Made by a program: the position numbers and the translations under genes. 64,000 bases of DNA from Nitrospirota bacterium (GTDB lineage Bacteria > Nitrospinota_A > UBA7883). The notes under the pieces were generated by a model. That model was not told the origin of the DNA, searched no databases, and saw only the letters and a program-made list of their open reading frames with translations. The stretch lies in contig JAJRZK010000006.1 in NCBI GenBank assembly GCA_024275315.1, positions 1 to 64,000 of the forward strand. The letters are read 5' to 3'. Position 1 is the first letter of the stretch. Every line of letters begins with the position of its first letter. Below are positions 2,575-16,826 of the stretch, piece after piece.

Positions 2575-3945
2575 ATGTCCGCAGATTCCCATTGCCATCT
2601 CAATGACCCGGCGTTTAAGGATGATCGCGACGAAGTGATCGCCAGAGCCAGGGGGGCCGGGGTCTGTCTTATGCTCAACGTTGGGTACGACCTGGCCACC
2701 ACCCGTGTCGCCATCGACCTGGCTCGCGCCAATCCCGACATGTTCGCCTCGGTCGGCGTGCATCCCCACAACGCAAAAGATGTGGACGGCGAAGTTATAG
2801 AGAAAATGCGCTTTGCCGCGGCGGCTCCGGAGGTGGTGGCGATCGGCGAGACCGGTCTCGATTATTACCGTGACAGGTCTCCAAGAGAGGCGCAACAAAA
2901 GGCGTTTCGGGCTCATCTGGCCCTTGCCCGGGAGGTTTGCAAACCGGTGGTGATCCATTGCAGGAACGCCATGGAGGATTGTCTTGAAATCCTGAGAGAC
3001 GAGGGCGTGGAGCAAACCGGCGCAGTGATGCACTGTTTCGCCGGGACACCGGACGACGCGCGCGCGTGCCTGGCGATGAACATGTACATCTCTTTTGCAG
3101 GCAACATCACATATCCAAAGGCCGCCGGATTGAGGGAGTCCTTGAGCGTTGTCCCGGGCCACAGGTTGCTGGTGGAGACCGACTCGCCATATCTTGCGCC
3201 CCGGAAAAAACGGGGCAAGAGAAACGAGCCGTCGCTGATATCCCATGTCATTGGCCAGGCGGCGACAACAAGAGGTGTCACCTACGAGGATATGGAGAGA
3301 ATATCGGTTTCCAATTTCAAGACGCTTTTCAAGGTGGGTGATCCGGGCGCCGGCGAGGTGGCCTACATGATCAGAAACTCGCTATACCTGAACGTCACCA
3401 GGAGTTGCGACAACGAGTGCTATTTCTGCGCCAGATTCCATTCCGACACGGTGCAGGGGCACAACCTGCGTATCGAACGCGACCCGACCACTGAAGAGAT
3501 GATAGAAGCGGTGGGCGACCCGACCAGGTATGACGAGGTGGTGTTTTGCGGATATGGCGAGCCGACACTGCGACTGGACCGGGTCAAAGAGGTGGCCAGG
3601 GCGGTAAAGGCCATGGGCGGGCACACACGGCTTAACACCAACGGTCACGGCTCTGTTATCGCCGGCCGGGACATTACACCGGAGCTTGTGGGCCTTGTTG
3701 ACGAGGTTTCTGTCAGCCTGAACGCTCCCGACGCTGATACGTACAACGCAATATGCAACCCGAAGTCGCCGGGTGCGTATGAGGGGCTGATCGAGTTTAT
3801 CAAAGCTACCAGGCGGCGGGGGCTGAAAGTCACCGCCACTGCCGTGGCCATAGAGGGCAAGGTGGACATTGAAGCTTGCCGGCGACTGGCGGAGAACGAG
3901 CTGGGGGTTTATTTCCGGGTGAGGGATTATAACCTGGTCGGTTAA
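2575..3945 (+). CDS. TatD-family metal-dependent hydrolase fused to a radical-SAM domain
   Basis: A 456-residue two-domain protein. Residues 1-255 are a complete TatD-type TIM-barrel hydrolase: H6 and H8 in SHCH, E92 in IGETG, H128, H153 and D203 in ETDSPY form the expected two-metal centre of a DNase or exonuclease. Residues 265-456 are a short radical-SAM domain with the Cx3Cx2C cluster motif C278-C282-C285 (CDNECYFC), then CGYGEPTLR and NTNGHG, typical of the TatD-associated radical-SAM family. In many genomes the two domains are separate neighbouring genes; here they are one polypeptide with no stop between them. The radical-SAM substrate is unknown. purA ends 33 bases upstream. The 3' end overlaps the convergent methyltransferase pseudogene by 4 bases. 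Confidence 0.88.
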   Translation: MSADSHCHLNDPAFKDDRDEVIARARGAGVCLMLNVGYDLATTRVAIDLARANPDMFASVGVHPHNAKDVDGEVIEKMRFAAAAPEVVAIGETGLDYYRDRSPREAQQKAFRAHLALAREVCKPVVIHCRNAMEDCLEILRDEGVEQTGAVMHCFAGTPDDARACLAMNMYISFAGNITYPKAAGLRESLSVVPGHRLLVETDSPYLAPRKKRGKRNEPSLISHVIGQAATTRGVTYEDMERISVSNFKTLFKVGDPGAGEVAYMIRNSLYLNVTRSCDNECYFCARFHSDTVQGHNLRIERDPTTEEMIEAVGDPTRYDEVVFCGYGEPTLRLDRVKEVARAVKAMGGHTRLNTNGHGSVIAGRDITPELVGLVDEVSVSLNAPDADTYNAICNPKSPGAYEGLIEFIKATRRRGLKVTATAVAIEGKVDIEACRRLAENELGVYFRVRDYNLVG

Positions 3946-4792: not shown

Positions 4793-5836
4793 TCAACGGG
4801 TGATTCCCAGGGTCCTGATGCCGGCATTGTTGAAAGAAGCCATGGCCTGTTCCGCTTCTTTTCTGGTTTTATACTTGCCGATACGGACTTTATACAAGCT
4901 GACCGGCGTTTTTGTGACGGTTATCCTGGATGGAAATCCGGCGGACTTTATGCGTCGGTGGAGTTTTTCCGCGCTCGCCCGTACGCTGAAAGTTCCCGCC
5001 ACCAGGGTCACTCCTGATCCGTTGTCGCGATACTTGACCCTGGTCGTAAATCCTGCCTCGCCCAGGCTGGCGGACATGCCGGACGAATCACGTATGGACT
5101 TGAATTCACCCACATCCACCCTGTAAAGCTCCTGCCGCGCCTTTCCCATGGATATCCACGAATCATATCCCTTTTTCATCAGGCTGTCCCGAAAAGCAAG
5201 CGCCCGTATCGCATCGGTGGTCGCCAGCGTCTGCACGGAAAATGCGCCGGTCCCCGCCGTCTCCGGAGACGGGCTCGACTCTACGGCTCGGACCGATTGC
5301 GCCGCAGATTCGGGTTTTTGCCGTGCGGTGTCGCTTGTGGGCGTGGCCTTGGCTGGCGCCGGTTCCGGCTCGGGACCGGTTTCCCGCTCCACCTGCTCCG
5401 GCTCTTTTTTGTCATCTTCGGGTGTCTGTCCCGCGGCTTGTTCTACCGTAACAGGTGTGGGTTTTGCCGGTTCTTCAATTGTTTTGGCAGGTTCAAGGGG
5501 CTTGTCTTCCATCAGTGCGCCCGGAGCCTTAAAATCTTCGTCTATCTGGTTTTGCTCCTGTAGCTTCGCTATTTGCGTTTCGATATCCTGCGGTTCCTCA
5601 CGGGGTGTTTCCCGCGGTTTTTCTTTTCCGGGTTCGACGGTCGCTGTTATTTCCTCTACATGCGTAGGTTCCGGGTTCTCGGATGTCAACACCAGGGCGA
5701 TGATTATTCCCGCGGCTATCCCGATAAAAATAAGGTTGCGCTTTTTTTTGCTGGCGTGATATTCGTCCGCCAGCTCGGCTTCGAAATCCTCCAGCAACTC
5801 GTTGTCCACTCCGCCGAATTTTTCCTCGTCGCTCAT
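4793..5836 (-). CDS. Membrane-anchored protein with two SPOR domains
   Basis: Probable peptidoglycan-binding envelope or division protein of the DedD/FtsN class. From ATG 5836 (GGAG 9 bases upstream) it has 347 residues: an acidic cytoplasmic N-terminus, a basic KKKR stop and one membrane helix at about 34-51, then a long low-complexity periplasmic linker rich in Pro, Glu, Thr and Lys (about 55-200). Two consecutive SPOR repeats follow (about 205-275 and 278-347), each with the FSVRASAEKLHRRIK- or YKVRIGKYKTRKEAE-like pattern that binds denuded glycan. An in-frame start 24 codons earlier would add a segment with no membrane signal and is less likely. It is divergent from the ROK kinase; a division role is inferred from domain structure only. 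Confidence 0.8.
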   Translation of the reverse strand: MSDEEKFGGVDNELLEDFEAELADEYHASKKKRNLIFIGIAAGIIIALVLTSENPEPTHVEEITATVEPGKEKPRETPREEPQDIETQIAKLQEQNQIDEDFKAPGALMEDKPLEPAKTIEEPAKPTPVTVEQAAGQTPEDDKKEPEQVERETGPEPEPAPAKATPTSDTARQKPESAAQSVRAVESSPSPETAGTGAFSVQTLATTDAIRALAFRDSLMKKGYDSWISMGKARQELYRVDVGEFKSIRDSSGMSASLGEAGFTTRVKYRDNGSGVTLVAGTFSVRASAEKLHRRIKSAGFPSRITVTKTPVSLYKVRIGKYKTRKEAEQAMASFNNAGIRTLGITR

Positions 5837-5928
5837 GCAATTTATCTCCAATCGTGTTAAGCCGTTTGTATCATAACCGGGCTCTATTAACAACATCTGT
5901 TGGGCCATTAGTTGGTATGATATACATC

Positions 5929-6897
5929 ATGAAACCAGGAGGGTATGTAATAGGGGTCGATCTGGGCGGGACATATGTCCGAGCCGCGGCGGTTTTGCCT
6001 GCGGGCAGGATATACGCCAGGGTCAAGCTGGAGTCGGGAGCTTCCCTGGGATACGGCGAGGTTGTAAAAATCATCAGGTCCGCCGTGGAAAATGTCGTTG
6101 TTTCGATGGGTGCGCCCCCTTTGGCCATCGGCTTAGCGTCCGCCGGTGCGATTGATTTTTCCAGGAAACAGGTCGTCAGGTCGCCGAACTTTCCCGATTG
6201 GCGAAATGTTCCCCTGGCGAAAGATGTGGGCGAAGAGTTCGCGGATTGTTCCATAACACTGGAAAACGACGCCAACGCCGCCGCTCTCGGAGAAGGGTGG
6301 CTGGGAGCCGCTAAAGGTTGGTCCGATTTTGTAACGCTGACCCTGGGTACGGGAATAGGTGGAGGTGTTGTCCTGGCCGGTGAGTTGTTGCGCGGCGCCC
6401 GGGGGATGGCTGGCGAAGTGGGGCACATCACCATACACCCCGATGGCAGACCTTGCGGGTGCGGAAGCTCTGGATGCCTGGAGACCACCGCGTCGGCGAC
6501 CGGGGTCAGGCGCACCGCGATAGAGAGAATGGCCGACCCCGGCTCCGTGTGGCTGAAAAAGGCCTGCCGGGGCGACATTGAAAAGATCGACGCCAGGTTG
6601 ATCGCCAGGCTGGGAGAAAAGGGGGACCCGTTTTGTGCTCGTATCCTGAAAGAAGCGGGAAGAGACCTTGGCGCGGCCATGGGAACACTGGCCCTGGTCC
6701 TGGGTGTGTCACGGTTTGTAATAGGCGGCGGGATGGCTCGGGCTTTCGGGTTGATGAAACCTTCGGCGAGAAGAACGGCCCTGAAATCCGCCTATACACT
6801 GACAGGGGCTAAACTTAAAATTGTGAATTCGCGGCTTGGCGATGACGCGGGGATACTCGGCGTGGCGAAAAAAGCCCTGGATTCGATTGATTCATAA
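5929..6897 (+). CDS. ROK-family sugar kinase (glucokinase-like)
   Basis: ATP-dependent hexose kinase, probably for glucose or an amino sugar. The N-terminal phosphate loop GVDLGGTYVRAA fits the ASKHA fold. The central GTGIGGG and LENDANAAALGEGW motifs carry the catalytic Asp. The ROK zinc signature is complete: GEVGHITIHPDG followed by CGCGSSGCLE. Length from ATG 5929 is 322 residues, usual for the family. ATG 5917 is a possible alternative start; a still longer frame to 5854 would overlap the divergent SPOR gene's upstream region and lacks homology. There is no DNA-binding domain, so it is an enzyme rather than a ROK repressor. It is followed after a single base by the permease gene, suggesting co-transcription. 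Confidence 0.85.
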   Translation: MKPGGYVIGVDLGGTYVRAAAVLPAGRIYARVKLESGASLGYGEVVKIIRSAVENVVVSMGAPPLAIGLASAGAIDFSRKQVVRSPNFPDWRNVPLAKDVGEEFADCSITLENDANAAALGEGWLGAAKGWSDFVTLTLGTGIGGGVVLAGELLRGARGMAGEVGHITIHPDGRPCGCGSSGCLETTASATGVRRTAIERMADPGSVWLKKACRGDIEKIDARLIARLGEKGDPFCARILKEAGRDLGAAMGTLALVLGVSRFVIGGGMARAFGLMKPSARRTALKSAYTLTGAKLKIVNSRLGDDAGILGVAKKALDSIDS

Positions 6898-6898
6898 C

Positions 6899-8104
6899 AT
6901 GTTCAGGATCATTGTCCAGGTCGCCTTCAGGGAGCTTCGCGGGTCGTTGAGCAGGTCGCTGTTGACCATGCTGGGTGTGATAATAGGAGTGGCGGCGGTG
7001 GTGGCGATGGTGGCGCTGGGGGAAGGGGCGAAATATGATGTGGCCCGCAACATACAGAACCTGGGCTCCAACCTGCTGATTATCCGTCCCGGCCTGCTGC
7101 AAAAACACCATGTGCGCAGCGCCCCCGCGCAAACGCTGACCATGGACGACGCCCGCCGGATAAGAAAGACCATTCCCCATGTGGTCTCCGCCGCGCCAAG
7201 CATAGCCCAGACGGCCCAGGTAAAATATATGAGTGAAAACGTTATGACGAATATTATCGGGGCCACGCCGGACTACCTGTCCGCCCGAAAGTTTTCGACT
7301 CGTAAGGGCAAGTTTTTCACATTGCACGATGTCGCCTCGGCCAGGCGAGTGGCCGCGCTGGGCAAAACGGTGGCCAAAACGCTTTTCAGGTCCACCAGCC
7401 CTGTCGGAAAATATATCAAGATCAACGGCGTAAACTTTCTGGTGGTGGCGGTCATGGCGGAGAAGGGCCAGGCCGGATGGTGGGACGCGGACGACCAGAT
7501 ACTGATCCCCGTCACCGCGTATCAAAAGCGGATATTCGGCGGCTCCCATGTCAGCAACATATTTGTAGAGGTGGACAGCCGCGGCTTCATGGCGCAGGTC
7601 AAGGCTCGTATCGAAACCCTGTTAAGGCGCACCCACAGGATAAGGAAAGAAGCCGAAGCGGACTTTCATATCCGGTCCCAGGTGGATATTCTAAAATCGA
7701 TGGAATCCATGACCAGGACATTCACATACCTGCTTGGAGGCATCGCCGCCATATCCCTGGTGGTTGGCGGGATAGGCATCATGAACATCATGCTCGTTAC
7801 GGTGACCGAGCGAACCAGGGAGGTGGGGCTCCGAAAGGCGCTGGGCGCCAAGCGGCGGGATATATTAAAGCAGTTTCTTGTGGAGTCCACCATCCTGTCC
7901 GGGATAGGGGGAATTGTGGGTGTGGGTCTGGGCGTGGTGGTGGCGCATGTCATCGGCCAGTTTTCAAAATGGGGAACCCATGTCTCCACCAACTCCATAA
8001 TGGTGGCGTACATAACCGCTTTGGTGGTCGGAGTGTTTTTCGGATGGTATCCGGCGTACAAGGCCGCGCAACTCAACCCGGTGGATGCGTTGAGGCATGA
8101 ATAG
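6899..8104 (+). CDS. MacB/FtsX-type ABC transporter permease
   Basis: A 401-residue inner-membrane protein of the MacB/LolE/FtsX permease family. It has an N-terminal helix (LSRSLLTMLGVIIGVAAVVAMVALGEGA), a large periplasmic MacB-core domain (about 50-270) and three C-terminal helices with the family segment GGIGIMNIMLVTVTERTREVGLRKALGA. The start at 6899 lies one base after the ROK kinase stop. Such permeases need an ATPase partner, and most have a MacA-like adaptor; neither is in this window, so it may use an ATPase encoded elsewhere. The substrate cannot be told (macrolide-like compounds, lipoproteins and peptides are family precedents). Confidence 0.88.
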   Translation: MFRIIVQVAFRELRGSLSRSLLTMLGVIIGVAAVVAMVALGEGAKYDVARNIQNLGSNLLIIRPGLLQKHHVRSAPAQTLTMDDARRIRKTIPHVVSAAPSIAQTAQVKYMSENVMTNIIGATPDYLSARKFSTRKGKFFTLHDVASARRVAALGKTVAKTLFRSTSPVGKYIKINGVNFLVVAVMAEKGQAGWWDADDQILIPVTAYQKRIFGGSHVSNIFVEVDSRGFMAQVKARIETLLRRTHRIRKEAEADFHIRSQVDILKSMESMTRTFTYLLGGIAAISLVVGGIGIMNIMLVTVTERTREVGLRKALGAKRRDILKQFLVESTILSGIGGIVGVGLGVVVAHVIGQFSKWGTHVSTNSIMVAYITALVVGVFFGWYPAYKAAQLNPVDALRHE

Positions 8105-8114
8105 GTTATACAAG

Positions 8115-8870
8115 ATGAATGGTGATCAACCACCGATTGCGACGGTCATCATGGCCGCTGGCAAGGGAACCAGGATGCAATCAGACTTGCCCAAGGTCAT
8201 GCACAACCTTGCCGGGCGGCCCCTGCTTGCCCATGTTATTGAAACGGCCCGCAAGGTAAACCCGTCCAGGATCGTTATAGTCGTTGGCCATGGAAGGGAT
8301 CTGGTGATGGACAGGTTTCGTGGAGAGGGTGTGGAGTTCGCCGTGCAGGAACCGCAACTGGGCACGGGGCACGCCATAGCCCGGACGGAGCCTGTTCTGG
8401 GGGATTTCGCCGGCCTTATAATCACCCTGTCCGGGGACGTGCCGCTGTTGGGAGCCGAAACCTTGAAAAAGATGATCCAGGTTCATCAGGACACCAAAGC
8501 TTCGTTGACCGTTCTCACCTGCGAACCGGACGACCCCGGGGCGTATGGCAGGATCGTGCGGAGGGACGGGCGTATCGTGGCCAACGTGGAAGCCAGGGAC
8601 GCGACAGAAGCGGAGTTGTCGATCAGGGAGATAAACGCGGGTGTATATGTGTTTGACTCCGGTTTTTTGTATCCCGCGCTTAAAAAGGTGGACAACAACA
8701 ACGCGCAGGGGGAGTATTATCTGACAGACCTCATACGCATAGCGGTGGAAAGCGGGCTCACGGTTTCATCCTGCAAGACAGAGGATCCGGTGCAGGCGCA
8801 GGGGGTCAACACCAAGGAGCAACTCGAATCACTGGCGAATGCGTACATGGCCCGTGTTGAAAGTAGATAG
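8115..8870 (+). CDS. Stand-alone GlmU-type N-acetylglucosamine-1-P uridylyltransferase domain
   Basis: Resembles only the N-terminal half of GlmU: about 251 residues, against roughly 455 for the bifunctional enzyme. The nucleotide-binding loop VIMAAGKGTRM (about 11-21) keeps its Arg, and SDLPKVMH keeps the essential Lys. Q-PQLGTGHA, LSGDVPLL (metal-binding Asp), YGRIVR, the E-x-x-D region, INAGVYVF and NNAQGEYYLTD are all GlmU signatures. There is no beta-helix acetyltransferase half; the frame stops after the helix GVNTKEQLE-A. It would make UDP-GlcNAc from UTP and GlcNAc-1-P. ATG 8115 is preferred (AGG 9 bases upstream); ATG 8097 would overlap the permease gene. Candidate acetyltransferase partners are encoded downstream. 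Confidence 0.87.
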   Translation: MNGDQPPIATVIMAAGKGTRMQSDLPKVMHNLAGRPLLAHVIETARKVNPSRIVIVVGHGRDLVMDRFRGEGVEFAVQEPQLGTGHAIARTEPVLGDFAGLIITLSGDVPLLGAETLKKMIQVHQDTKASLTVLTCEPDDPGAYGRIVRRDGRIVANVEARDATEAELSIREINAGVYVFDSGFLYPALKKVDNNNAQGEYYLTDLIRIAVESGLTVSSCKTEDPVQAQGVNTKEQLESLANAYMARVESR

Positions 8871-8899
8871 AGCAACTGGCGTGACGGCGAATGGTGGAT

Positions 8900-8928
8900 T
8901 TGCCTAAAGTCGGCGCTGGGCATATAAT
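8900..8928 (+). promoter_or_regulatory. Sigma-70-type promoter for the amino-sugar operon
   Basis: TTGCCT at 8900-8905 and a perfect TATAAT at 8923-8928 are separated by 17 bases. Transcription would begin near 8935, giving a leader of about 26 bases before the gene at 8961. It separates the uridylyltransferase gene from the following run of genes, so those can be expressed independently of the upstream permease. Confidence 0.7.
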
Positions 8929-8960
8929 CGGGGCTCACGTAAAACACAACAGGTTTTGTT

Positions 8961-10169
8961 ATGAAAGCGATTGTATTGGCAGGAGGCCGCGGCGCGAGCA
9001 TGGCTCCGTTTTCCAGCACCCGCCCGAACCCGATGCTCCCGGTGTGCGGGTCGTACGTGATCGACTATACCCTGGGCATGCTCAAAGCCGCAGGTGTAAA
9101 CCTTGCGAACATGGTTGTAGGCAGCCACGCAGACGTGATAAAGAGCCATCTTTCCCACGGGCACCCTTCCGGCATGGCCATACACATCATCAACCAGGGC
9201 AAGCAGGCCATGATAGGAAAAGCGATATTGAAAGCCAAATCCCGCTTTTCTCCGGGGGAGCATTTTGTGTTGGTATACGCAGACACCCTGACCACCTCCA
9301 ACATTTTCAGCGTGGCCCTGCAATCGTTCGGGCTCCACAACGACCCGGTGGCGTCTATCTGCCATACCGGGTCGGCCGAGAAATACGGCGCGGTCTATCT
9401 TGGCCAGGATATGAAGATCACAAAGATAATAGAAAAACCAAAAAAGAAAGCCGGGCTGGGCAACTATGTCCTCTCCGGGGTATTCGTGTTGCCGGAGCGT
9501 TTTTTCGGCTACCTGGAAAAAGCCAGGGGCGACATGGAGCAGGCGCTTAAGAACCTGATCGACAAGGAGACCCTTCGCGCTTCCATATGGGAAAACGACT
9601 GGCTGGACATGGCCTATCCCTGGGACATTCTCACCGCCAACCGCATGATAATGGACCAGTGGAAAACAGCGGAAATACATCACAGCGTCGAGCTGAGCGA
9701 GACCATAATCAAGGGCCCTGTCAGGATCTGCCAAGGCGCGGAAGTGCGGGCGGGGTCTGTGCTTGAAGGGCCGGCGTTTATCGGGCCGGGGGCCTTTATC
9801 GGGCATAACGTGCTGATTCGTCCATATACGTGCGTGGGCGCCAACAGCGTGATCGGCGTGGGGGCGGAGCTCAAGAACTGCGCCCTGTTTCCCGGCGTTA
9901 ATGTCGGCAGGCTGTCGTTTATAGGCGATTCGGTCGTTGGCGAGAGTGTGGATATCGGCGCCGGAACGATGACTATCAACCGCACCATAGACTCCAAACC
10001 GGTAAAAGTGAAAGTCGGCGGGAAAATCGTCGACACCGGGCTGGAGAAGATAGGGGCGTTTATAGGTGACAAGGCGGTTATCGGGGCTTCGAACACCCTG
10101 GCCGCGGGGGTGAAGATCGATCCTGGTGTGATGATCCCTCATAATTGCTCGGTCCACCACCGATGCTAG
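8961..10169 (+). CDS. Degenerate sugar-1-P nucleotidyltransferase / LbH acyltransferase fusion
   Basis: A 402-residue protein with the architecture of archaeal-type bifunctional GlmU: nucleotidyltransferase (about 1-235) plus left-handed beta-helix (about 240-400). Key residues are changed in both halves. The nucleotide loop reads GGRGASMAPFSSTRPNPML, with Ser13 where the conserved Arg belongs and Asn23 in place of the catalytic Lys of the RPKPM motif. In the helix, the segment that in E. coli GlmU carries His363, Tyr366 and Asn377 reads GRLSFIGDSVVGESVDIGAG, with Arg317, Phe320 and Asp331 instead. The fold-forming residues (D108 in YADTL, hexapeptide repeats, GLEKIGAFIGD) remain. It is an intact, well-conserved frame with its own promoter, so a non-catalytic, scaffold or altered-substrate role is more likely than decay. 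glmS follows 23 bases downstream. Confidence 0.8.
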   Translation: MKAIVLAGGRGASMAPFSSTRPNPMLPVCGSYVIDYTLGMLKAAGVNLANMVVGSHADVIKSHLSHGHPSGMAIHIINQGKQAMIGKAILKAKSRFSPGEHFVLVYADTLTTSNIFSVALQSFGLHNDPVASICHTGSAEKYGAVYLGQDMKITKIIEKPKKKAGLGNYVLSGVFVLPERFFGYLEKARGDMEQALKNLIDKETLRASIWENDWLDMAYPWDILTANRMIMDQWKTAEIHHSVELSETIIKGPVRICQGAEVRAGSVLEGPAFIGPGAFIGHNVLIRPYTCVGANSVIGVGAELKNCALFPGVNVGRLSFIGDSVVGESVDIGAGTMTINRTIDSKPVKVKVGGKIVDTGLEKIGAFIGDKAVIGASNTLAAGVKIDPGVMIPHNCSVHHRC

Positions 10170-10192
10170 AAATATTTTCCTGAAGTAAAATT

Positions 10193-12016
10193 ATGTGCGG
10201 AATAGCTGGCATAGTTGCACTGGAGGATATAAGCGCACGGCTTGTCCAGTCCATACGGAATCTTGAATACAGAGGTTACGACTCGTGCGGGATTGCGATG
10301 CTCAACGGGTCTGGAAAAATAAAGATAAGCAAGAACATCGGCTCTGTCGAGGAAGTCTGCGAGAAGGAAAACTTTGGCAGGCTCAAGGGCTCGGTCGGCA
10401 TCGCGCATACAAGGTGGGCCACCCATGGCGGGGTCACCAAATCCAACGCTCATCCCCACATGTCGTGCGACAACGGCTTTTCCATCGCGCACAACGGGAT
10501 AATATCCAACCATGAAAAGCTCCGGACAAGGCTGAAAAATGCGGGGCACCGGTTTCGCTCCACCACCGATACGGAGGTGATCGTGCATCTTGTGGAGGAC
10601 TGGCACAGGAAGGTCAAATCGGTCGAAAAAGCCTTTGTGGCCGCCATGCGCGAGCTGGACGGGACATACGCCGTCATCCTCGTCACCGGCCACGAGCCGG
10701 ACAGGATATACTGCGCCAGGAACGAAAGCCCCCTCCTTATCGGGCTTGGCGATTATGTCAACTATATCGGGTCCGACCTTAACGCCTTTATCGACCACAC
10801 CAAAAACGCCGTGTTTATGGAGGACAAGGAATACGCCATTGTCACCCATGACAGCTGCATACTAAAACGCATATCCGATGGCGAGACAATGTCCCGCCAG
10901 GTGCAGGAGCTTATGTGGGATTCGGAGATGGCGCAAAAGGGTGGTTTTCCCCATTACATGCTCAAGGAAATCTATGAACAGCCCCAGGTTGTCCATAACG
11001 CCCTGGATATCGACCCTGAGCTGGTGGAGGGTTTTGCGAGGATGGCGCTTGAGAAAAAGACGCTGCACATAACGGGGGTCGGCACCACTTTTTACGTGTC
11101 CCAGATCGGTCAATATTATTTCAGCAGGTACGCCGGCGTTACGCCCATGGTGATATCCTCGGACGAGTTCAGGTTTTTAGCCCAGGTGGACAAGGACACC
11201 GCCATCATAGCGGTTTCCCAGTCCGGGGAGACATACGACACGTTAAACGCTCTTCGTTACGGCAAGAGCCACCATGCGACCACAGGCGCCATAGTGAACG
11301 TGATGGGTTCGTCCATGGCCAGGATGGTGGATCAGATGATCCTCCAGGGGTCCGGGCCGGAGATATGCGTGATCAGTACGAAAGCGGCTCTTTCACAAAT
11401 GATAATTCTGGCCAGGATCGCGATGGCGGCGGGGGTGATGAATGGCCGTATAACCGCGAAACAAGCCAGGGGTTACGAGGCGCAATTGCGGGAGCTGCCC
11501 GCGGCGATAGAGAACGTGTTGAATGAAAAATCGGGTTTTATCCATACAATAGCCCAACAGCAAAGCCATATAAAGCACTGGCTGTTTCTTGGCAGGGGCC
11601 GCTATTATCCTGTCGCCAGGGAATCGGCGCTGAAGATGAAGGAGGTGTCGTATGTTCACGCCGAAGGGATGCCCAGCGGATTTTTGAAACACGGCACGAT
11701 TGCCCTGATTGATGAGAATCTCAATTCCGTGGTGTTCGCCCCGCCGGAGGAGGAGAAGGAGCTGTACAAGCTTACCCTCTCCTCGGCCGAAGAGATCAGG
11801 GCGCGTGACGGATATGTTCTCGGGCTGACATTCAAACAGAAGAAAAAAGAGAAACTGCCCTTCACAGAGCAGATAGTCCTCCCGAAAACCCCACCCTTCA
11901 CCGCTCCGTTCCTGCAAATGGTGGTGGCCCAGCTCCTGTCGTATTTCACCGCCACCACGTTAAAACGCAATATCGACAGACCCAGATCGCTGGCCAAATC
12001 GGTGACGGTGGCCTAG
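10193..12016 (+). CDS. glmS: Glutamine-fructose-6-phosphate aminotransferase
   Basis: Makes glucosamine-6-phosphate from fructose-6-phosphate and glutamine, the entry step to UDP-GlcNAc. The 607 residues match the family. The N-terminal MCGIAGIV exposes the catalytic Cys after Met removal, with [16 protein letters not shown] and NGIISNHE forming the class II glutaminase site. Two SIS domains follow (about 285-420 and 455-595) with SQSGETYDT and [26 protein letters not shown]. The C-terminal tail is [10 protein letters not shown]; the family usually ends in VTVE, so the last residue is atypical although the tail closing the ammonia channel is otherwise conserved. The spacing (6 bases) to the phosphohexomutase gene indicates one transcript. 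No glmS ribozyme is visible upstream. Confidence 0.96.
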   Translation: [607 protein letters not shown]

Positions 12017-12022
12017 GGGAAT

Positions 12023-14068
12023 ATGTTCCTGTTCCAGGGCACCGATGGCGTTCGCCGGCGTGTGAAACTTTCAACCGACCCCGAATTGTCCGGCTTGACG
12101 CCACAACAGGCGTTTATGAGGCATGGCGTGATCACGGAACGATTCATGGAGCTTTACACCTATTGCCATGTTCGCCAGTTGATCGAGTCCGGTTTCATAT
12201 CCGAAGGTGATCGTTTTGTTATCGGGTGGGACCCCCGCGACCCGGACAAGGTGTTCAGCTCCGCGGCGGCGCACGGGTTGGCCAAAGGTGGGGCGAGAGT
12301 GGTCGTGGCCGGCGTGGCGCCGACCCCCGCCGTGGCGCTGTATATGCGATATATAAAAGCCGCCGGGGTGGTCGTGGTTACCGCTTCTCACAATCCGGCT
12401 TCTTACAACGGGATAAAAATATTCACAAGGAGCGGATTGAAGCTTCTCCCCGATGATGATCGGGCGTTGAGCGGCCGGGTCCTTGCCACGGATTACGCGG
12501 AGGTGGAACGGGCCGCGGTCGACGTGTCGATAGAAGACCATCATGATCGTGCGCTGGAAGTGTTTGTAAATTATTCGATCGACCCGTCCAATAGCTGGAT
12601 AGACGATCCGGCGTGGCTTGAGGATATGACCATTGTGGCGGATTGCGCCAACGGGGCGCTTTCGGAAGTGGCGGAGGGTATTCTCCAAAAGGCCGGGTTC
12701 GGCGAAGTGGTCGTGGTGAACGACAGGCTGGACGGATCGGTCAATGTCCGGTCCGGTGTCGCGGAGTTGGAAGGGGTGGATGAAATCGGGCCGGACATGG
12801 TGTCTGACGGCGGCAGGTTCGCGGGGAACATGGCGATGGTTCGTCTGTTTGAAATCGGGAGAAAAAAACGGGATCTTGTGGCGAATGGATCGGCCATGGT
12901 GTGCGCCGCTGTGTTCGATGGCGACGGTGACCGGTTTTATGGTGTCTTTTACAATCCGCTTACGGATTCGGCTTTCGTCCTGACAGGAGACGAGACCGCC
13001 GCGCTCCAGGCGGGGTATATGGCGGAGCGGGGCGAGGGGGATGGACTGTTTCTCAATACGGTTGAAAGCGACCTGGCCGCCGCCATAAAAGCCAGGGAAC
13101 TGGGTTTTGCCACCGAGCTTACCGCTGTCGGTGACAAATGGATTCTGCTGGGTTCGTTTCTCGCCTTGTGGAGGCGGACATTGCCTCCCGATGTGTATAA
13201 CCACATCAGGTCCCTTATTGACAAGGGATCTGTCTCGGCCGATGCGCTGGAAAGGGCGCTGGACGAGGCTGGGGAGGGTCGGGACAAAGTTAGCGCCGCC
13301 GGGGGGCTGGCTCTGGTCGGGGCCGAGGAGAGCGGACACACTATCACCCAAGGGTACCTGGAAATGGCCGATGGCGCGCGGGTCGCGGTTTTTCACGGGA
13401 ACGGTATCAAGAGCTGTCTTAACACTTTCGGGGCGATTTGCGGATCGTGGAGGCGTGGATATCACGCTGACGATGTCGAGCCTGCGCTCGATAGGATCCG
13501 TCATCCGTTCACGGGTGGGTTCAAAAAGACTTTGTATGTCTATTATGTGGATAAATCCCGGTGGCGCAGAGGAACCGCGGTGTGGAATGACGTAAGAGCT
13601 GTTATCTGTGAGAAAATGGCGGAACTGTGGCCCGGAGGTGTTTGCGAGGAGATGGTTCGCGCCGAGGACGCTGATATGCTGTATATGAAAATCATCGAAT
13701 CGGGGTTGCACACCGGCTCTGTGTTTGTGAGGAATTCCGGCACGGAGGACAAAACCGGGGTTACGTTGCGGGGGGATGTGACGGCGGAAACGAAGCTGTT
13801 GGAAATTGGCGGGGCGGTGTTGCGGCGGCTCATAGCGGGGTTGAAGGATCAAAAGGGCGTGATGGGCAGGGCCGAGATGGAACTGCTGACAGCGGCCGGG
13901 CGGGGGGGCGCTCCGCAATCTCCTGTGGGCGGGCTGGATGATCGGGAATATCGTCAACTGCTTGTGGAAACCGCTACAAAACAAGGGTTTTTAACCGATC
14001 CCGATCCTGGCGCTGTGTTGACGGAGCTTGGAAAATGGTATCTTTCGACGGGGGAACCAAAAATATGA
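12023..14068 (+). CDS. Oversized phosphohexomutase (PGM/PMM superfamily)
   Basis: Alpha-D-phosphohexomutase of 681 residues, over 200 more than standard GlmM or ManB. All four active-site elements are visible: phosphoserine loop VTASHNPASYNG (Ser122), metal loop DGDGDR (299-304), sugar-recognition loop GAEESGH (about 435-441) and phosphate-binding loop VRNSGTEDKTG (about 570-580). The extra length lies in insertions between domains (about 165-200 and 390-430) and a C-terminal extension of about 75 residues (LLTAAGRGGAPQ onward), not recognised. Placed after glmS, it is the likely source of GlcN-1-P, although phosphoglucose or phosphomannose activity cannot be excluded. Its stop overlaps the next gene by 4 bases (ATGA). 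Confidence 0.85.
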   Translation: MFLFQGTDGVRRRVKLSTDPELSGLTPQQAFMRHGVITERFMELYTYCHVRQLIESGFISEGDRFVIGWDPRDPDKVFSSAAAHGLAKGGARVVVAGVAPTPAVALYMRYIKAAGVVVVTASHNPASYNGIKIFTRSGLKLLPDDDRALSGRVLATDYAEVERAAVDVSIEDHHDRALEVFVNYSIDPSNSWIDDPAWLEDMTIVADCANGALSEVAEGILQKAGFGEVVVVNDRLDGSVNVRSGVAELEGVDEIGPDMVSDGGRFAGNMAMVRLFEIGRKKRDLVANGSAMVCAAVFDGDGDRFYGVFYNPLTDSAFVLTGDETAALQAGYMAERGEGDGLFLNTVESDLAAAIKARELGFATELTAVGDKWILLGSFLALWRRTLPPDVYNHIRSLIDKGSVSADALERALDEAGEGRDKVSAAGGLALVGAEESGHTITQGYLEMADGARVAVFHGNGIKSCLNTFGAICGSWRRGYHADDVEPALDRIRHPFTGGFKKTLYVYYVDKSRWRRGTAVWNDVRAVICEKMAELWPGGVCEEMVRAEDADMLYMKIIESGLHTGSVFVRNSGTEDKTGVTLRGDVTAETKLLEIGGAVLRRLIAGLKDQKGVMGRAEMELLTAAGRGGAPQSPVGGLDDREYRQLLVETATKQGFLTDPDPGAVLTELGKWYLSTGEPKI

Positions 14069-14883
14069 AATCAGAAGAAATGTTTCTGGCCAACAACCGG
14101 TTCCGGTTTTTGGATTACATCAAGGAAGGGCCGGCGCTTTGGTCTGTCCTGGAGAGGATTCCCGGTATAATAGAGGAATTCCTGGATGGCAAAAAGGGTA
14201 CGGAGCAGGATGTATACGGACACGCTCTTCTGCCCGGCTCGGTCCGGATCCCCCATGGGTCCGGTGAACGCTCCGTTTCGGTCATGCAGACCATGGCCGT
14301 CGAGGAGGATATATATATCAGGCAGGCCAAGGTGTTTATCGGCAGGGGGACGACGCTGGAATATGGGGCGATCATCAAGGGACCTTGCGTTATCGGGGAA
14401 AATTGCGAGATACGGCAGGGGGCGTATCTTCGCGGCTCCGTTATTATCGGGGACGGTTGCGTGGTGGGCCATGTGACCGAGGTGAAGAAATCGATATTCA
14501 TGGACCGCACAAACGCGGGGCATTTCGCCTATGTGGGGGATTCGGTGCTGGGTAGCCGTGTGAACCTTGGCGCGGGCGTGATTCTGGCCAACCTGCAGTT
14601 TCGAACGCCAGGGGAGATAGACTCCGGCGTCATAAGGGAGATTGTCATAAACAGGCGGGGGGACGCGCGTCCCACCGGGCTGGAAAAGCTCGGCTCCGTG
14701 ATCGGGGACTATACGGAGGTCGGGTGCAACACGGTGATGACACCAGGTGTCGTCATCGGGCCAAGGTGCTGGGTCTATCCCAACACCACTGTGCCAAAGG
14801 GGTTTTACGAGCCCGGAAAGTTCATCAGGACAAGGGGTGTTTCATTGTCCGTGGACGCGACGGACTTGCCGCAGGTGGATTGA
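14065..14883 (+). CDS. Stand-alone left-handed beta-helix acetyltransferase (GlmU C-terminal type)
   Basis: A 272-residue protein: a short helical N-terminus (about 1-55), then hexapeptide repeats (about 60-245) of the LbH fold. Unlike the upstream fusion, it keeps the GlmU acetyltransferase triad: AGHFAYVGDSVLGSRVNLGAG holds His153, Tyr156 and Asn167, equivalent by motif to His363, Tyr366 and Asn377 of E. coli GlmU. There is no nucleotidyltransferase domain. It could acetylate GlcN-1-P, supplying the activity missing from the stand-alone uridylyltransferase upstream. The start at 14065 uses an ATGA overlap with the phosphohexomutase stop and a GGGGGA site 9 bases upstream. A different sugar acceptor is the main alternative. 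Confidence 0.82.
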   Translation: MKSEEMFLANNRFRFLDYIKEGPALWSVLERIPGIIEEFLDGKKGTEQDVYGHALLPGSVRIPHGSGERSVSVMQTMAVEEDIYIRQAKVFIGRGTTLEYGAIIKGPCVIGENCEIRQGAYLRGSVIIGDGCVVGHVTEVKKSIFMDRTNAGHFAYVGDSVLGSRVNLGAGVILANLQFRTPGEIDSGVIREIVINRRGDARPTGLEKLGSVIGDYTEVGCNTVMTPGVVIGPRCWVYPNTTVPKGFYEPGKFIRTRGVSLSVDATDLPQVD

Positions 14884-14887
14884 CAAC

Positions 14888-15394
14888 ATGAGAATATTCG
14901 TTATGTTTACACTGTTTCTGATCTTCTCCGCTTCGTTGCTGTCCCCTGTGTCGGCCAAGGACCTTCCGGAGATGGCGCCAGGGTTTACTCTCGAAAAGGC
15001 CGGAGGGGGTGTGGTGACTCTCGAAAAGTACCGGGGTTCGGCTGTGATTGTTAATTTCTGGGCCACATGGTGCAAACCTTGCGTGGAGGAGATGCCGGCC
15101 CTGGAGCGGATACACCGGAACCGCGCCGGTTCCGGCGTTTCGGTTATCGGCGTCAATTACAGGCAAAAGGCCAAACGTGTGGAGAGGTTCATAAAGGAAA
15201 ACTCCATAACGTTTCCCGTGGCGCTGGACAGCAAGGGCAAAACGGCCAAAATCTATGGAGTGAACGCGTTGCCGCACACGGTCCTGGTGGACAAGGACGG
15301 CAAGGTGGTAAAATCCCGCGAGGGCCCGCTGACAGAGTCGACAATCGACGAATGGTTCCAGGCTTTGAAAACGTGCGGCGATTCACCATGCTAG
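14888..15394 (+). CDS. TlpA/ResA-like exported thioredoxin-fold protein
   Basis: A 168-residue periplasmic thiol-disulfide protein of the TlpA/ResA class. A signal peptide (MRIFVMFTLFLIFSASLL, ending near VSA at residue 23) is followed by a redoxin-like domain with the active-site WATWCKPCVEEMP and the cis-Pro segment NALPHTVLVD. Such proteins reduce disulfides in apocytochromes or other envelope proteins. The ATG at 14888 is 4 bases after the acetyltransferase stop; longer in-frame starts would place the signal peptide internally. The mature C-terminus has a Cys pair (TCGDSPC) outside the fold. It is the last gene of the amino-sugar operon, but a functional link is not obvious. Confidence 0.87.
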   Translation: MRIFVMFTLFLIFSASLLSPVSAKDLPEMAPGFTLEKAGGGVVTLEKYRGSAVIVNFWATWCKPCVEEMPALERIHRNRAGSGVSVIGVNYRQKAKRVERFIKENSITFPVALDSKGKTAKIYGVNALPHTVLVDKDGKVVKSREGPLTESTIDEWFQALKTCGDSPC

Positions 15395-15395
15395 A

Positions 15396-15443
15396 GCCTG
15401 GCCGATAAATATCGCCACCTCCCCGGCGATCCGTTCGCCAGGC
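15396..15443. terminator. Possible bidirectional hairpin between convergent genes
   Basis: GCCTGGC at 15396-15402 and GCCAGGC at 15437-15443 can pair around a 34-base loop that itself holds a smaller CGATAAATATCG palindrome. It sits in the 64-base gap between the convergent TlpA-like and trxA genes. The long loop makes it a weak candidate. Confidence 0.25.
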
Positions 15444-15458
15444 CGGTTTTGCCGGGCG

Positions 15459-15785
15459 CTATATGTTCTGGTCGATAACTTCCTGAAGCTCGGACTTGGA
15501 CCGCACACCGACGACCTGTTTTAAAATATCCCCGTTCTTGAAGAACAGCAGTGTCGGGATCGATCTTATTCCGTATTTCGTCGCGGTCTTGTTGTTGTCA
15601 TCGACGTTAAGTTTGCCGATGCTCAATTTTCCCTGGTACTCATTGGCCAGTTCTTCTATGGTGGGAGCTATCATCCGGCACGGGGCGCACCACTCCGCCC
15701 AGAAATCCACGAGGGTCAACATGCCTGAATTAATAACTTTTTCATCAAAATTGTCGTCTGTAAACTCTGCAACATTATTAGCCAT
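15459..15785 (-). CDS. trxA: Thioredoxin
   Basis: Cytosolic disulfide reductase of 108 residues, the standard length. The active site is FWAEWCAPCRMIAP, with Cys33 and Cys36; the usual WCGPC has Ala in place of Gly here, a change known from other thioredoxin relatives that may shift redox potential. The buried Asp (VDFWA), cis-Pro IRSIPTL and the C-terminal helix are normal. An AAGGAG site lies about 10 bases upstream of the ATG. The gene has its own promoter, located at the end of the upstream deoxysugar gene. Confidence 0.95.
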   Translation of the reverse strand: MANNVAEFTDDNFDEKVINSGMLTLVDFWAEWCAPCRMIAPTIEELANEYQGKLSIGKLNVDDNNKTATKYGIRSIPTLLFFKNGDILKQVVGVRSKSELQEVIDQNI

Positions 15786-15838
15786 TACTTCATGTCTCCT
15801 TGATCAAAACTGCAATCTCGCGCAATGCCATCAACTAG

Positions 15839-15867
15839 ATATTAACTGTTAGACCGAAGATAATCAA
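15839..15867 (-). promoter_or_regulatory. Sigma-70-type promoter for trxA
   Basis: On the minus strand TTGATT (15867-15862) and TAATAT (15844-15839) are separated by 17 bases, placing the start of transcription near 15832, about 47 bases before trxA. The -35 box overlaps the stop of the preceding gene. Confidence 0.6.
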
Positions 15868-16826
15868 CCTGTGATTTTTTCCCTGGAAACCACGTTTCTG
15901 AAGTTTTCCAGAAGATCGGACAAAGTCTTGTCCATCGGAATTTGTGGCGTCCAGCGGGTCAACTGAAAAGTTTTCGCTACGTCACCGAAGACGATCGGGT
16001 TTTCGGACGGCCTGGAACGGGCCGGGTCCAGCTCCGATCTGAGGCCGCGCCTGGTGGACAAACCCAGCAGTGTGTCGAGAATCCATTTTATTTTTATCGG
16101 CCTGCCGGAGCAGACATGATAGACGCCGCCTGTCTCTCCTTTGGAGAGTATGAGAGGGTACACCGCCGCGACATCGCGCACGTCGCAAAAGTCCCGCTCT
16201 GCGTCCAGGCTCCCCGTCCGTATGACAGGGTCGCTCAGCCCCGCCTCGATCCGCGCAATCTGGGAGGCGAACGCAGGCGCGACAAAGCGGGTGTCCTGCC
16301 CTGGTCCGGTATGGTTGAAGGGTCTTGCGATCACCACATGCAGGCCGGGGTTGTGGGCGTATTGCCGGGCGATCGCCTCGGCGCAATACTTTGATGTGGA
16401 ATAGGCGTTGACAGGATCCGCGGGCCTGCTCTCGGATATGGGGTTTTCCGCAGGATCGACCCTGCCGTAAACCTCGGAGCTGCTGGCTAGCAGGGTTTTG
16501 CTGTGAGGCGCCAGGCTGGCCAGGGACTCGAGCAGGTTCAATGTTCCGTTCACGTTGGATCTGTAAGCCGATATGCGGTCGTTCACGGCGTCGGGCATAA
16601 AGGACACCGCCGCCAGGTGGTATACCGCGTCAGGCCGGATGTCGGATATCGCGCAATACGTTTGATCGTAATCGTCCAGGGAGACTTTCACCAACCGGCC
16701 CGGAAAATCATCGCCCGGGCGGGAACTGCGATAAGTTCCGAAAATTTCCACGTCTTTTGATCCGGCCAGGGCGCGGGCCAGGATTTTACCTACAAACCCT
16801 CCTGCGCCGGTTATAAGGATTTTCAT
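15864..16826 (-). CDS. NAD(P)-dependent sugar epimerase/reductase, GDP-4-keto-6-deoxy-mannose reductase-like
   Basis: Extended short-chain dehydrogenase of 320 residues acting on a nucleotide sugar. The Rossmann motif GAGGFVGK, the YHLAA segment, catalytic Ser in ASSSEVYG and the Y-x-x-x-K pair in YSTSKYCAE are all present. ARPFNHTGPGQ followed by FVAPAFASQIARIEAG is characteristic of GDP-6-deoxy-lyxo-hexulose reductase (Rmd) and GDP-mannose dehydratase relatives. A role in making GDP-D-rhamnose or a similar deoxyhexose for surface polysaccharide is likely, but no GDP-mannose 4,6-dehydratase gene is in view. It starts 10 bases after the secretin-like gene on the same strand. Confidence 0.8.
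   Translation of the reverse strand: MKILITGAGGFVGKILARALAGSKDVEIFGTYRSSRPGDDFPGRLVKVSLDDYDQTYCAISDIRPDAVYHLAAVSFMPDAVNDRISAYRSNVNGTLNLLESLASLAPHSKTLLASSSEVYGRVDPAENPISESRPADPVNAYSTSKYCAEAIARQYAHNPGLHVVIARPFNHTGPGQDTRFVAPAFASQIARIEAGLSDPVIRTGSLDAERDFCDVRDVAAVYPLILSKGETGGVYHVCSGRPIKIKWILDTLLGLSTRRGLRSELDPARSRPSENPIVFGDVAKTFQLTRWTPQIPMDKTLSDLLENFRNVVSREKITG

Follow-up and report, generated by a model that had tools for sequence, protein, structure and literature searches.

How a bacterium makes UDP-N-acetylglucosamine (UDP-GlcNAc) and sets its flux matters because neither peptidoglycan nor lipopolysaccharide can be built without this supply. Control at the level of GlmS is solved differently among bacteria. 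The question is raised by a gene cluster in a 64,000-nucleotide stretch of a Nitrospirota bacterium genome (contig JAJRZK010000006.1 of assembly GCA_024275315.1, positions 1 to 64,000; hereafter the window), where the two halves of GlmU appear as separate proteins on either side of a third, two-domain homologue that carries neither catalytic set. A first-pass annotation proposed that two separate enzymes had replaced the bifunctional one and that the old one was kept in a scaffold, regulatory or altered-substrate role. We find that this third protein, P0002, is probably a conserved pseudo-GlmU of a different lineage, tied to glmS. All genes lie on the forward strand, in the order ROK kinase, ABC permease, P0001, P0002, glmS, long phosphohexomutase and P0003:

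8115..8870, +, P0001, predicted monofunctional GlmU uridylyltransferase (amino half of bacterial GlmU); frame open from 8097
8961..10169, +, P0002, putative pseudo-GlmU, archaeal-type nucleotidyltransferase (NTase) and left-handed β-helix (LbH) protein with both catalytic sets replaced; 402 amino acids
10193..12016, +, glmS, glutamine-fructose-6-phosphate transaminase (residues checked against E. coli GlmS)
12023..14068, +, long phosphohexomutase, sole GlmM candidate in the genome; PGM_PMM domains I-III
14065..14883, +, P0003, candidate monofunctional LbH glucosamine-1-phosphate acetyltransferase (LbH region of TIGR03992)

P0002 has lost both catalytic sets and is under selection

Arg and Lys of the nucleotidyltransferase loop and His of the LbH domain are catalytic residues of GlmU. 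Alignment of P0002 to ST0452 and E. coli GlmU bore out the initial claim that both sets are gone: Ser13, Asn23, Arg317, Phe320 and Asp331 occupy the sites that are, in ST0452 numbering, Arg13, Lys23, His308, Tyr311 and Asn322. P0002 matches the archaeal-type model TIGR03992 over its full length, at 291.6 bits a hair below the cut-off of 292.1, and several orthologues score above it. Such scores speak for homology only; P0002 lacks the catalytic set of that family (Arg13, Lys23, His308, Tyr311, Asn322). This is an annotation problem, since the P0002-type proteins that pass the curated cut-off would be named bifunctional enzymes.

Across P0002-type proteins, loop Arg13 was found in none of 82 and Lys23 in 33. 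Position 308 was never His (Arg in 78, Gly in 3, Ser in 1), Phe replaced Tyr311 in 79/82 and Asp stood at position 322 in 60/82. Asp331 is the weakest of these signs of loss, because the archaeal-type homologue L241 also has Asp at the Asn331-equivalent and keeps its other residues intact. Archaeal-type homologues from other bacteria (L238-L240) retain the loop Arg and Lys together with His, Tyr and Asn, and have no adjoining glmS. Outside the chemistry residues, the P0002-type proteins are well preserved, with Tyr97, Asp99 and Trp206 each present in 82/82, Asp208 in 81/82, and the sugar-phosphate residues of the LbH domain, Arg278, Lys296 and Lys354, kept at 95% or above. The residue pattern is far beyond chance, as it recurs in relatives and conservation runs in opposite directions in the three proteins of the cluster.

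Modelled with AlphaFold (mean pLDDT 87.3, pTM 0.86), P0002 had its best structure match in ST0452 (5z0a; TM 0.84, 28-29% identity), and the GMPPA/GMPPB complex was also a fold match. Residue counts and model together give the combination seen in GMPPA, namely catalytic residues lost with fold and ligand pocket kept.

Loss of both catalytic sets could mean that P0002 is a decaying relic without function. Among close relatives, however, dN/dS was 0.055-0.07 for P0002-type genes, against 0.047-0.083 for glmS, 0.20-0.24 for P0001-type and 0.11-0.13 for P0003-type genes, so that constraint is stronger on the type without its catalytic residues than on either type that retains them. P0002-type frames are intact in about 90 loci, and at former catalytic positions new residues have become fixed, in 78-79 of 82 proteins. 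The selection data contradict a relic or pseudogene, which we regard as extremely improbable.

A protein so conserved might instead have kept enzymatic activity but altered its substrate or mechanism; it could, for instance, act as a nucleotidylyltransferase on a different sugar phosphate, with other residues standing in for the loop Arg. The near-invariant metal-binding Asp and pocket aromatics fit this, as do 26 positions that are at least 95% conserved in P0002-type proteins yet unlike ST0452 (including Ile for Thr80, Leu for Asn157, Arg for His308 and Phe for Tyr311), which is what a redirected site would be expected to show, and some P0002-carrying genomes have no P0001-type enzyme. However, about ten different residues occupy the Arg13 site (Asn, His, Gly, Lys, Ser, Asp and others), which looks like lost constraint and not like a new catalytic residue, and P0002-type genes travel with the GlcNAc pathway and not with another sugar pathway. 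We consider an altered-substrate enzyme unlikely. Loss of Arg13 did not track an adjoining P0001-type gene in these loci, occurring with or without one.

Two GlmU lineages meet in the cluster

P0001 matched the bacterial GlmU model TIGR01173 at 267.7 bits (cut-off 366.85) and only over positions 1-241 of 452, in line with the first-pass description of a uridylyltransferase half with Arg and Lys intact. Besides these loop residues, it has the equivalents of Gln76, Asp105, Asn169 and Asn227; in the P0001-type set Arg18, Lys25 and Asp105 are each present in 57/57 and Asn227 in 56/57. Its ATG at 8115 is in frame with the open reading frame (ORF) from 8097, and both starts are equally plausible. 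A P0001 homologue of 349 amino acids in the relative G055 still has remnants of LbH coils, as would fit a bacterial GlmU that was truncated, and we read P0001 as such a truncated bacterial GlmU from its sequence.

P0003 matched only the LbH part of TIGR03992 (149.5 bits). The gene at 14065 had been described as LbH only, and so it proved, with His153, Tyr156 and Asn167 in place and identical throughout a 14-member alignment. The P0003-type set keeps these three catalytic residues on its LbH domain in 20/20, and its sugar-phosphate Arg, Lys and Asn residues are conserved, making P0003 a candidate glucosamine-1-phosphate acetyltransferase.

None of the three proteins has both domains above the TIGR01173 cut-off (P0001 267.7, P0002 89.5 and P0003 63.6 bits against 366.85). 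Statements about the whole of the window's own genome (2.9 Mb, 100% complete) come from model searches; these found no full-length GlmU above the cut-off, and the best match was P0001, at 266.5 bits.

In a tree of LbH domains, built by a quick method with the three catalytic columns removed and with SH-aLRT as the only support measure, P0002-type (97%), P0003-type (100%) and TIGR03991-type (100%) proteins formed separate clades, which argues that P0002 is the ancestor of neither partner. Descent of P0001 or P0003 from P0002 is ruled out by the family scores and these clades. The proposed history thus stands in part: the halves are separate, a complete GlmU is missing and a degenerate two-domain protein is kept. 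That protein is not the old enzyme, as P0002 belongs to the archaeal-type lineage (291.6 bits to TIGR03992 against 89.5 to TIGR01173) and the old GlmU is the truncated P0001. On these assignments two GlmU lineages meet in the cluster, one truncated bacterial (P0001) and one archaeal-type (P0002), so the idea of an old enzyme kept is not right.

Intermediates survive: the P0002-type protein at locus L249 still carries both loop residues, Arg and Lys; Arg is gone from most others, and the window's group has lost both. Since every P0002-type member examined is without His308, the acetyltransferase set was likely lost first, followed by Arg13 in most and then Lys23 in the window's group. The cluster would make a concrete test case of a bifunctional enzyme taken apart and a homologue put to other use.

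P0002-type genes are linked to glmS

An alignment-based search recovered 80 loci with P0002 relatives; the P0002 sequence alone matched none. They come overwhelmingly from Nitrospinota metagenome genomes, with others from Nitrospina, Tectomicrobia, SAR324, Binatia, Cloacimonetes and Coatesbacteria; going by these relatives, the window would itself belong to Nitrospinota. In all, 91 loci with a P0002-type gene were considered, and because three have no room downstream, 88 were testable. In 84 of these, glmS lies directly downstream of the P0002-type gene (median gap 11 bases), and a P0001-type gene lies directly upstream in 49/84 loci. Because the tight linkage is to glmS and not to the two catalytic partners, the scaffold, regulatory and altered-substrate options can be narrowed.

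This bears on P0002 as a structural partner, forming mixed LbH trimers with P0003 or a scaffold for P0001, P0003 and GlmS. LbH proteins like P0002 and P0003 assemble as trimers whose subunits share active sites, which lends the idea some force; P0002 keeps Arg278, Lys296 and Lys354 while the catalytic His sits in P0003, and the two genes share one operon here and in many relatives. Yet in Nitrospina-like genomes the P0003-type gene is unlinked from the P0002-type gene (L070 versus L071) and the glmS linkage stays. A structural role is, in our judgement, quite improbable.

The window GlmS has its catalytic Cys and isomerase residues, and the main GlmS has Cys in 97/100, the other three being unreadable. 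A sister family has an additional GlmS paralogue between its P0001- and P0002-type genes, and one Tectomicrobia genome has such a paralogue as well (examples at L123:7161-8975, L128:7169-8986 and relatives, and L251:3-2066); identity to the window GlmS is 31-36%. All 14 copies, from nine genomes and next to the pseudo-GlmU cluster, read Met-Ser-Gly at the catalytic Cys1. The paralogue passes the GlmS model, has a dN/dS of 0.06-0.07, and is likely a second pseudoenzyme. The window's cluster is without it.

Carriers of P0002-type genes lack a full-length GlmU

A full-length GlmU above the cut-off was found in none of 37 verified P0002-type carriers, compared with 112 of 289 genomes searched (counts not corrected for relatedness). 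Most of the 37 belong to the window's phylum and 15 lie outside it. In 14 of these 15 a P0003-type protein is present; the remaining genome carries a second archaeal-type protein that still has His and Tyr. Nine match the GlmU model at E < 1e-30, eight of them clearly P0001-type.

Two kinds of arrangement were noted alongside. Nitrospina-like L235 (G176), at 97% completeness, has a pseudo-GlmU and no recognisable GlmU uridylyltransferase, through an assembly gap or another enzyme. At L205:450-2327 (G057) a single frame of about 625 amino acids joins a GlmU uridylyltransferase half to preceding domains that look like a response-regulator receiver and an HD-type domain, and G202:C165 has a similar long frame.

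A possible sensor of GlmS

We propose that two monofunctional enzymes make UDP-GlcNAc and that P0002 is a non-catalytic, ligand-binding controller of GlmS, a proposal that has about an even chance of being right. P0003 would acetylate glucosamine-1-phosphate and P0001 would couple the product to UTP, giving UDP-GlcNAc. P0002, as a presumed non-catalytic archaeal-type GlmU paralogue that keeps fold, metal-binding Asp and sugar-phosphate residues but not the chemistry residues, would most likely bind a ligand, either UDP-GlcNAc or a sugar phosphate of the pathway, and would control GlmS, the pathway's first enzyme and its own constant genetic neighbour. Ligand binding, contact with GlmS, the direction of control and the lack of activity are all predictions from sequence and model.

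There are precedents for such a proposal. One is GMPPA, a paralogue of GMPPB without catalytic function, which binds GDP-mannose and acts as an inhibitor of GMPPB (PMC11228364). The other is GlmR, a stimulator of GlmS as long as it carries no UDP-GlcNAc (PMC7525490). A homologue of GlmR/YvcK is missing from the window's genome, and no match to a known RNA element passed its gathering score near the cluster (5000-16000), so another GlmS regulator is not in evidence.

Several observations weigh against a sensor. Six of the 15 carriers outside the phylum have no good P0001-type match, the main unexplained point, and in some lineages P0002-type proteins or another NTase may thus still supply UDP-GlcNAc. 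The L249 protein keeps both Arg13 and Lys23, and Lys23 is still present in 33 of 82 P0002-type proteins. Four loci have no glmS immediately downstream, and adjacency alone cannot separate GlmS regulation from plain operon membership.

More tentatively, the P0002 type may be a widespread GlmU-derived pseudoenzyme family that stands beside glmS in many mostly uncultured lineages and acts as an undescribed feedback sensor setting cell-wall amino-sugar flux, joined in one clade by the Ser-for-Cys GlmS paralogue. A literature search for a split GlmU or pseudo-GlmU found no description; it covered open-licence papers only and is hence weak evidence of novelty. With a conserved pseudo-GlmU next to glmS, the principles by which bacteria control this step would grow by one.

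Neighbouring genes

As the first-pass annotation stated, glmS and a phosphohexomutase are in the cluster, both between P0002 and P0003. The phosphohexomutase, at 681 amino acids far longer than an ordinary GlmM (about 450), scored 121-125 bits with GlmM models, below their cut-offs; the motifs TASHNP, DGDGDR and RNSGTE are visible in its sequence. It is the sole GlmM candidate because the only other PGM/PMM gene in the genome (C44) reads as a ManB/PgmG-type mutase. Elsewhere in the window, the ORF at 2575-3945, judged by its translation, appears to join a TatD-type nuclease to a radical-SAM domain.

Comparison with known systems

Archaeal-type GlmU of the ST0452 kind (TIGR03992) is the best solved relative of P0002, which shares its two-domain fold (TM 0.84) and aligns over its full length. 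P0002 differs in having substitutions at both loop residues (Arg, Lys) and at the LbH His, Tyr and Asn, in its glmS linkage across lineages and in its separate clade. P0001 corresponds to bacterial GlmU (TIGR01173) in the amino half, with all checked residues present, but the LbH half is gone; the acetyltransferase would be a second protein, with an LbH domain nearest the archaeal-type model.

Other bacterial genomes (L193-L197, L204, L206-L208) have GlmU split into an amino half of about 250 amino acids and a TIGR03991-like protein of about 400. These pairs from other phyla, like the window, divide GlmU activities between proteins; unlike the window, they have no pseudo-GlmU, and the acetyltransferase partner is the TIGR03991-like protein.

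GMPPA and the large subunit of plant ADP-glucose pyrophosphorylase are, as we suggest for P0002, non-catalytic or modulatory paralogues of nucleotide-sugar pyrophosphorylases (PMC11228364). In P0002, by contrast, the likely target is a different enzyme, GlmS, both domains are degenerate and not one, and a heteromer is hypothetical. GlmR/YvcK has the role we propose for P0002, UDP-GlcNAc-responsive control of GlmS (PMC7525490), but belongs to an unrelated family that is absent from the window's genome.

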